This document shows positions 20,230 to 20,736 of a stretch of 64,000 bases of DNA, one piece after another. This stretch comes from Bacteroidota bacterium. GTDB lineage: Bacteria > Bacteroidota > Ignavibacteria > Kryptoniales > JAKASW01. Under the pieces are notes generated by a model. The model was not told the origin of the DNA. It saw nothing but the letters and a program-made list of their open reading frames with translations, and made no database searches. Position 1 is the first letter of the stretch, and each line of letters starts with the position of its first letter. Location: assembly GCA_021812985.1 (NCBI GenBank), contig JAKAMG010000016.1:1-64000 (forward strand), written 5' to 3'. Made by a program: the position numbers and the translations under genes.

Positions 20230-20283
20230 GGGGCGTAGCCAGGTTGTAAGGCATCCCGACGGCGTGATATACAGTCGGGACAA
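20230..20283 (+). repeat. tRNA-Gln-like degenerate copy with substituted hairpin (upstream copy)
   Basis: Bases 20230-20253 nearly match the 5' half of tRNA-Gln (20342-20365). In place of the anticodon arm there is a hairpin (TCCCGAC...GTCGGGA, 20254-20280) followed by ACAA. The same hairpin appears in the downstream copy at 20677-20706. It cannot be a working tRNA. Confidence 0.7.
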
Positions 20284-20340
20284 ATACAGGTTCGGATGCC
20301 GATGGAGGCAACGCCACAAGTGCTTTGAGAGTCCCGAAAT

Positions 20341-20412
20341 TGGGGCGTAGCCAAGTGGTAAGGCAGCGGCCTTTGGAGCCGCCATTCGTAGGTTCGAATC
20401 CTGCCGCCCCAG
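20341..20412 (+). tRNA. tRNA-Gln, anticodon TTG
   Basis: A full cloverleaf: acceptor TGGGGCG paired with CGCCCCA, D arm with AGTGGTAA, a five-base anticodon stem GCGGC/GCCGC with loop CTTTGGA (anticodon TTG, reading CAA/CAG), and T arm with TTCGAAT. Discriminator G at 20412. CCA is not encoded. A GIY-YIG gene starts 5 bases after it. Confidence 0.95.
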
Positions 20413-20417
20413 CGAGA

Positions 20418-20672
20418 ATGAGCTTCATTGTGTATGTACTTAGGAGTATGGTCAGGGAAAGGTCCTATATCGGACAGACCGACGACCTAACTGCCAGGCT
20501 CAGACGGCACAATGAAGGAAGAGTTAGATCGACGAAGGCTTACCGGCCGTGGTCGATAGCGTACTTTGAGAAATATGAGACGCGAGCGGAAGCGATGAGG
20601 CGAGAGAAAGAGTTGAAGGGCCTCAAAGGGACCGCAAAGTTTCTGAAGCTTGTGGATGCGGCAAAGTGGTAA
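20418..20672 (+). CDS. Small GIY-YIG nuclease domain protein
   Basis: 84 residues forming a complete minimal GIY-YIG domain: VYVLRS and YIGQT supply the two name-giving strands, RLRRHNEGR carries the conserved Arg/His, and EAMRREKELK gives the catalytic Glu region. Such proteins nick or cut DNA; solitary members have unclear roles. The reading frame is open further upstream through the tRNA, but ATG 20418 is the sensible start. The last codons (Ala-Lys-Trp-stop) are formed by a copied tRNA D-arm. The gene is enclosed by exact 30-bp repeats of the tRNA 3' end, suggesting insertion or mobility. Confidence 0.85.
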   Translation: MSFIVYVLRSMVRERSYIGQTDDLTARLRRHNEGRVRSTKAYRPWSIAYFEKYETRAEAMRREKELKGLKGTAKFLKLVDAAKW

Positions 20673-20736
20673 GGCATCCCGACTGTGATATATGCAGTCG
20701 GGACAATCGTAGGTTCGAATCCTGCCGCCCCAGCGA
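20662..20736 (+). repeat. tRNA-Gln-like degenerate copy with substituted hairpin (downstream copy)
   Basis: 20664-20676 equals the tRNA D-arm segment at 20353-20365. 20677-20706 is a hairpin (TCCCGACT.../...AGTCGGGA) matching the upstream copy. 20707-20736 is an exact 30-base repeat of tRNA-Gln 3' end 20386-20415. It lacks a true acceptor 5' strand and anticodon arm. It overlaps the end of the GIY-YIG gene. Confidence 0.85.

Follow-up and report, generated by a model that had tools for sequence, protein, structure and literature searches.

Integrative elements use tRNA 3′ ends as their target, and group I introns with homing endonucleases are inserted in tRNA genes; in both cases the function of the tRNA is kept. 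In the tyrT locus of Escherichia coli, the tRNA gene is followed by tandem rtT repeats, in each of which the 3′ end of the tRNA is copied. REP sequences are short palindromes paired with a small nuclease, the RAYT transposase. Among small GIY-YIG proteins, SLX1 acts on branched DNA jointly with SLX4, and to our knowledge neither SLX1 nor the UPF0213/YhbQ-type proteins are linked to tRNA genes. REPs are the subject of a previous paper (PMC3733652). The nearest characterized system is SegB of phages T4 and T6, a free-standing GIY-YIG endonuclease located among phage tRNA genes, which combines homing with recombination-dependent tandem amplification of a tRNA segment (PMC13096335, PMC2988022).

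The units described here resemble SegB and the other Seg enzymes in encoding a GIY-YIG protein and in being intergenic, free-standing and placed among tRNA genes. However, they reside in bacterial chromosomes, each clade is tied to one tRNA, the enzyme of ∼84 aa consists of the catalytic domain only, and they carry partial tRNA copies and hairpins that are undescribed for SegB. They share with rtT repeats the tandem arrangement behind a tRNA and the copies of its 3′ end, but rtT repeats lack a GIY-YIG gene. Compared with integrative elements and group I introns, the unit has neither integrase nor ribozyme, is far smaller and contains partial tRNA copies with hairpins. We found no account of bacterial tRNA-GIY-YIG-tRNA units in open-access papers.

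In the window (the whole 64-kb stretch of DNA analysed, from a metagenome-type assembly), ARAGORN, Rfam, ORF and Pfam results agree with the positions that an earlier note had given for a tRNA-Gln and a GIY-YIG gene just behind it (Table 1). The finer anatomy proposed in that note was recovered as well: the final AAKW-stop of the ORF is written in a copied tRNA D-arm (ORF end GCGGCAAAGTGGTAA), 30 bp of the tRNA 3′ end are repeated exactly (20386-20415 = 20707-20736), a degenerate tRNA copy lies upstream (20230-20253 having 92% identity to tRNA positions 2-25), and both outer copies carry a TCCCGAC/GTCGGGA hairpin instead of the anticodon arm. The hairpin word occurs twice in the window, for an expectation of 0.16. 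A BLAST search of the tRNA against its own assembly gave one full-length match, so that the host gene of the unit is apparently single-copy and presumably essential, and has been left whole. The -10-like box TATATTTTATGCCGC is found 55 bp 5′ of the intact tRNA in relatives with an empty site, among them G012 and G002, where it is the native promoter box of the intact tRNA; in the window it stands directly 5′ of the left copy.

Table 1. Features of the tRNA-Gln/prs locus in the window
Feature	Position	Strand	Evidence
TATATTT, -10-like box of the tRNA-Gln promoter, common to relatives	20173..20179	+	
Left degenerate tRNA-Gln copy: tRNA 2-25, hairpin replacing the anticodon arm, decayed T-arm	20230..20299	+	direct repeats; BLAST of tRNA
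Left hairpin TCCCGACGGCGTGATATACAGTCGGGA	20254..20280	+	
Intact tRNA-Gln(TTG)	20341..20413	+	ARAGORN 20341-20413; Rfam 20341-20412, 66.7 bits
321-bp unit, extra relative to empty sites	20414..20734	+	G009 filled vs G012/G002 empty
84-aa GIY-YIG nuclease gene (ATG at 20418, TAA stop ending at 20672)	20418..20672	+	ORF, Pfam, alignment
Right tRNA copy, D-arm, source of the last codons and stop of the ORF	20661..20676	+	
Right hairpin TCCCGACTGTGATATATGCAGTCGGGA replacing the anticodon arm	20677..20703	+	
Right copy, T-arm and acceptor 3′ strand; 30 bp match the end of the intact tRNA exactly	20704..20736	+	
prs (ribose-phosphate pyrophosphokinase), conserved right neighbour	20944..21876	+	ORF

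The nuclease belongs to the GIY-YIG superfamily, as indicated both by its match to PF01541 (E=7e-16, 58.8 bits for a cut-off of 22.6, residues 4-72) and by the conserved catalytic Tyr, Tyr, Arg and Glu; Y6, Y17, G19, R27, H31 and E63 are invariant in an alignment of 16 homologs. Its closest named homologs are in a Candidatus Kryptoniota bacterium and in Bacteroidetes MAGs. By profile, the closest solved chains are those of UPF0213 and SLX1 (1zg2, 1ywl, 7cq2; E 7e-14 to 1e-6), which like the present enzyme consist of a single small catalytic domain, and the match to I-TevI is weak (E 0.02). As for Seg enzymes, the gene lies beside its putative target gene and outside any intron: Rfam families matched only tRNA in the window stretch and in six arrays, without rtT, and a known RNA family or intron was therefore rejected. 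A separate C-terminal DNA-binding region of the Seg type is not evident in the 84-aa ORF, so we propose a likeness of function only and do not claim a Seg protein. In the tRNA-Gln clade, the ORF is under purifying selection, with a median dN/dS of 0.11 over 19 pairs in which many synonymous sites are near saturation. In the Gln type, the ATG of the nuclease gene follows the tRNA at a distance of 4-7 nt.

The conserved right neighbour prs, present in all 13 genomes of the genus, served as a marker for filled and empty sites. A tRNA-Gln is kept upstream of prs in 13/13 genomes, and the nuclease occurs between them in eight. The earlier note had proposed to look for empty sites with a single tRNA-Gln, and these exist: among the five genomes without the nuclease, three have nothing recognizable and two have a decayed copy with a T-loop insert. 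The site thus has presence and absence alleles, which is a feature of free-standing homing endonucleases. From the tRNA end to prs, the filled genome G009 exceeds the empty G012 and G002 by 321 bp (remaining flank 210 bp vs 207/208 bp). Both of these empty flanks show similarity to the beginning of the ORF and may therefore derive from deletions instead of being virgin sites. The additional 321 bp consist of the nuclease gene and a partial tRNA-Gln copy in which the 17-nt anticodon arm is swapped for the hairpin.

Homologs are encoded in 46 of 61 relatives, often several per genome and often 310-430 bp apart. We examined ∼100 homolog loci, chosen by similarity and not randomly, which gave 148 nuclease matches (a few loci being represented twice). 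Within 300 bp, a tRNA gene was found upstream on the same strand for 78 matches, downstream on the same strand for 19 and on the opposite strand for one, that is, on the same strand in 97 of the 98 loci of the same class having a nearby tRNA; many of the remaining 50 are internal to arrays or located at the end of a contig. When fragments are counted, a tRNA gene or tRNA copy accompanies 124 of the 133 ORFs of this class; as a null for the copy score, 60 random regions gave 5% at threshold 18 and 0/60 at >=20. In other classes of Bacteroidota, the tRNA was on the same strand in 36 cases and on the opposite strand in none, and two Dyadobacter genomes have the nuclease beside tRNA-Pro; the sampling is almost all within Bacteroidota, other phyla being hardly represented. 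The targets cover ∼15 amino-acid identities, including Gln, Met (initiator type), Pro, Ser, Asp, Ala, Val, Asn, Arg, Gly, Leu, Cys, Lys and Ile. The search of relatives for the tRNA-GIY-YIG-tRNA arrangement, suggested by the earlier note, was thus productive at many tRNA types and in dozens of genomes, and because the same layout is found there with other sequences, the layout in the window is not due to chance. The window unit is one case of a pattern that extends over the phylum and that is real, widespread and only partly explained. Its recurrence at so many tRNA genes suggests a minimal, little-known mobile unit that would invade tRNA genes without destroying them.

The units exist in two mirror forms, in which an intact tRNA is followed by the nuclease and a tRNA 3′ part, or a tRNA 5′ part is followed by the nuclease and an intact tRNA (L048, L084 and L204 duplicate the 5′ part); at some loci, including the window, copies are present on both sides of the nuclease. 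Tandem units are frequent, with two to eight beside one tRNA (three in G177, G048 and G124; eight in G103). Arrays are probably under-counted in draft genomes, because contigs often start or end inside units (e.g. L055, L061, L076, L090).

Some arrays have individual features. In L202 (G103, 880-4050), the eight nuclease units follow the 3′ half of an initiator tRNA whose 5′ half is missing. In L206 (G124, 1190-1260), the anticodon TAA of the copied tRNA-Leu doubles as the nuclease stop codon, and the tRNA terminator is present in each unit. Two loci of G048 lying ∼12 kb apart, L078 and L102, have closely similar nucleases at tRNA-Ser(GGA) and tRNA-Ser(GCT), possibly as a result of a recent isoacceptor shift or of a segmental duplication.

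Nuclease clades track the tRNA target and not the host family. On the nuclease tree, the tRNA-type label changes 42 times vs 87.6 after shuffling (minimum 78), 44 vs 87.6 when the tree is built from the core domain alone, and 36 vs 55.3 (minimum 51) when each combination of host family and tRNA type is reduced to one row, whereas host family gives no signal (49 vs 47.8). The hairpin class also tracks the nuclease clade, with seven changes on the ORF tree vs 12.7 shuffled (minimum 11); at the same site, TGGCGC is the hairpin of one Pro(CGG) clade and TCCCGA that of another, and the TCTACGA hairpin of the Ala clade is found in different arms. The copies carry the tRNA segments of the host itself, as seen for the T-stem GGAGG/CCTCC shared by intact tRNA and copy in L037/L038 and for GTAGG/CCTGC in the window. 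Since the hairpin follows the clade and the tRNA segments are host-like, these comparisons point to a cassette made of nuclease and hairpin, the tRNA parts probably being taken from the target or converted by it. A minimal tRNA-targeted unit of a few hundred bases, putatively mobile, as proposed in the earlier note, is well supported by the empty sites, the other tRNA targets, the tandem arrays and a nuclease tree that follows the tRNA.

A total of 133 inserts were found in 128 tRNA copies, at fixed tRNA positions, and 81% of them are strong hairpins (z below -2 relative to mononucleotide shuffles). They fall in few classes: an exact swap of the 17-nt anticodon arm in 25 cases (Gln, Pro, Val, Ala, Lys, Ser), a loss of 8 nt in the T-arm, mostly for Asp, and insertions without loss in 33 cases, placed in the T-loop (GGTTC^GA), the anticodon loop, the D-loop or the junction of D-arm and anticodon arm. 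Exactly 22 bp are inserted in 15 of 46 near-lossless insertions, and each of these inserts can be decomposed into two neighbouring 4-3-4 mini-hairpins whose eight stem pairs include no more than one mismatch. In the L247 array, four tandem copies lack and two have an insert of the 22-bp type at the same place, without target duplication, so that filled and empty states coexist in a single array. For the T-loop word GGTTCTCCCNNNGGGA, 37 matches were obtained in the 61 genomes vs one for the control, some in coding DNA and most of those inspected in tRNA copies. TCCCG..CGGGA hairpins recur inside copies of twelve tRNA species across the phylum. Such hairpin-swapped copies, with fixed positions in many tRNA species, represent a strange and so far unexplained sequence change.

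The 22-bp inserts stand at loop apexes of tRNA copies as two 11-bp mini-hairpins (4-bp stem, 3-nt loop), without target duplication, in L247, L049, L062, L122, L179, L188, L191 and other loci. Similar 22-mers are located outside tRNA in L226 and L237.

Our preferred interpretation, to which we give a probability of roughly one half, is that the unit is a minimal free-standing cassette of homing type, whose homology arms are tRNA segments and which preserves one intact tRNA. The small nuclease, transcribed from the tRNA promoter, would cut one particular tRNA gene; the break would be repaired from a cassette-bearing copy, one end pairing with the intact tRNA and the other with the far-side partial copy, and gap repair would import the nuclease gene and restore one complete tRNA. 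Because the arms would be tRNA segments, the cassette could enter any genome having that tRNA, whatever its surroundings. Repeated breakage and recombination between copies would produce tandem arrays, or loss and empty sites, and the hairpin that replaces or interrupts one arm of each partial copy would most likely prevent this copy from serving as a tRNA or as a target of the nuclease. Such a model would explain the strand and position of the units, the target-specific clades, the arrays and the empty sites. By analogy, we infer that the chromosomal cassettes act like SegB, and we hold with moderate confidence that they work like free-standing homing nucleases.

Several observations do not fit this model easily. 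Since the intact tRNA next to each cassette would be expected to be cut as well, some restraint on self-cutting must exist. No DNA-recognition domain is obvious in the ORF, whose closest chains are UPF0213 and SLX1 and not I-TevI, and some hairpin-bearing copies are present without any nuclease gene. In the tRNA-Ala clade, the hairpin is in the T-arm in L068 and in the D-loop in L046, L054 and L056; destruction of the cut site by the hairpin therefore fails for some cases, and we rejected as a general rule that the hairpin marks the arm that is cut. A more ambitious version of homing is tentative. It would be a new kind of parasite, a catalytic-domain nuclease with a cognate hairpin, which might copy itself into tRNA genes through tRNA-derived arms and leave one working tRNA. 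The hairpin would mark each partial copy at fixed positions of the cloverleaf, either by a swap of the whole anticodon arm at the four-way junction or by a 22-bp mini-hairpin pair at loop apexes, and the parasite would breed nuclease-free satellites.

Tandem arrays of hairpin-bearing tRNA copies without nuclease were detected in L246 (G006), L247 (G003), L248 (G001) and L262 (G007), with a period of 108-146 bp, beside tRNA-Gly, -Met, -Arg and -Pro. Moreover, G017 has hairpin-bearing copies and no nuclease homolog was found in its genome. These gene-free copies appear to be decayed or satellite units. They would also be expected from a pair similar to REP and RAYT, in which the nuclease acts on the hairpin as its cognate substrate, the hairpin-bearing tRNA copy multiplies and the nuclease-free copies are non-autonomous members. 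The agreement of hairpin class and nuclease clade, and stems that keep their pairing by compensatory changes, are in accordance with such a pair. However, co-inheritance alone would yield the same agreement, and TCCCG..CGGGA is common to many unrelated clades. The search for the hairpin word across the rest of the genome, also suggested previously, did not reveal a family: TCCCGA-N-TCGGGA is present at 18 places in the genome of the window vs seven for a control pattern, with no tRNA near the 13 other places checked. We thus rejected a dispersed REP-like family in this genome, whereas the other half of that earlier idea, a hairpin partner of the nuclease, stands, tied to tRNA copies. In addition, the enzyme is a GIY-YIG protein and not a Y1/HUH transposase. 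We consider this alternative unlikely, and as defining features of REP/RAYT pairs, integrative elements and introns were looked for and were absent, the unit was placed in none of these classes.

The motif TCCCTTCGGGA is strongly over-represented in G001, G003, G004, G005, G006 and G007 (e.g. 46 vs one for the control in G007) and not in the genome of the window (seven vs four).

The nuclease-free arrays are likewise compatible with an ordinary tandem duplication of tRNA, in which a small host-owned GIY-YIG gene without a role was once caught and unequal recombination resizes the arrays; recombination between tRNA repeats would also yield empty sites. This explanation does not tell why one nuclease family should be associated with ∼15 tRNA identities in the same orientation and divide into clades according to the tRNA and not the host, and it seems to us rather improbable. 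A toxin-like nuclease that cleaves tRNA, with the hairpin-bearing copies as uncleavable decoys acting as antitoxin RNA, would agree with clades that follow the tRNA and with the copies of the Gln, Val, Lys and Pro(CGG) types, which retain D- and T-arms and lose exactly the anticodon arm. However, many copies, such as those of L070 and L204, retain a single T-arm or D-arm, which precludes a tRNA fold, and decoy tRNA was rejected as a general explanation for this reason; the right copy of the window reaches 19.3 bits as a tRNA in Rfam for a cut-off of 29, and we know of no GIY-YIG RNase specific for tRNA, which makes this possibility very improbable. Finally, the 30-bp direct repeat of the tRNA 3′ end could evoke the scar of an integrase-type element using this end as attachment site, but the whole extra segment of 321 bp contains a single GIY-YIG ORF without any integrase, and mirror units duplicate the tRNA 5′ part, which renders this origin hardly credible.

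If the homing cassette is correct, these units would be among the smallest mobile units in bacteria (∼320 bp and one 84-aa enzyme), common in a whole phylum, and would use the most conserved genes for landing without inactivating them. Many annotated pseudo-tRNAs and small orphan GIY-YIG genes would be explained, a natural collection of nucleases with clades matching particular tRNA genes would become available, and the way in which a bare catalytic domain locates a tRNA gene would become testable. Regarding a phage or plasmid vector, tblastn gave no more than weak matches over part of the sequence, to Listeria records and to one other phage, and IMG/VR scans with different nuclease types gave no match. 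No known defence system was detected by NCBIfam, and one weak partial match in PADLOC (E=4e-4 over 24 residues) was not counted as evidence.

Hairpin-bearing copies may be a source of false tRNA annotation: in L032 (1733-1803), such a copy of tRNA-Pro is called tRNA-Cys(ACA) by ARAGORN. The prs leader of the window (20846-20895, + strand), composed of GCCGATTGGCAAGG, a hairpin and GCCGAATCC, resembles an old hairpin-bearing copy of tRNA-Gln. Similar leaders, with a hairpin followed by CCGAATCC/CCAAATCC, precede prs in about eight genomes of the genus, including nuclease-free ones, and the element looks like either a fossil tRNA copy or a working prs leader RNA.
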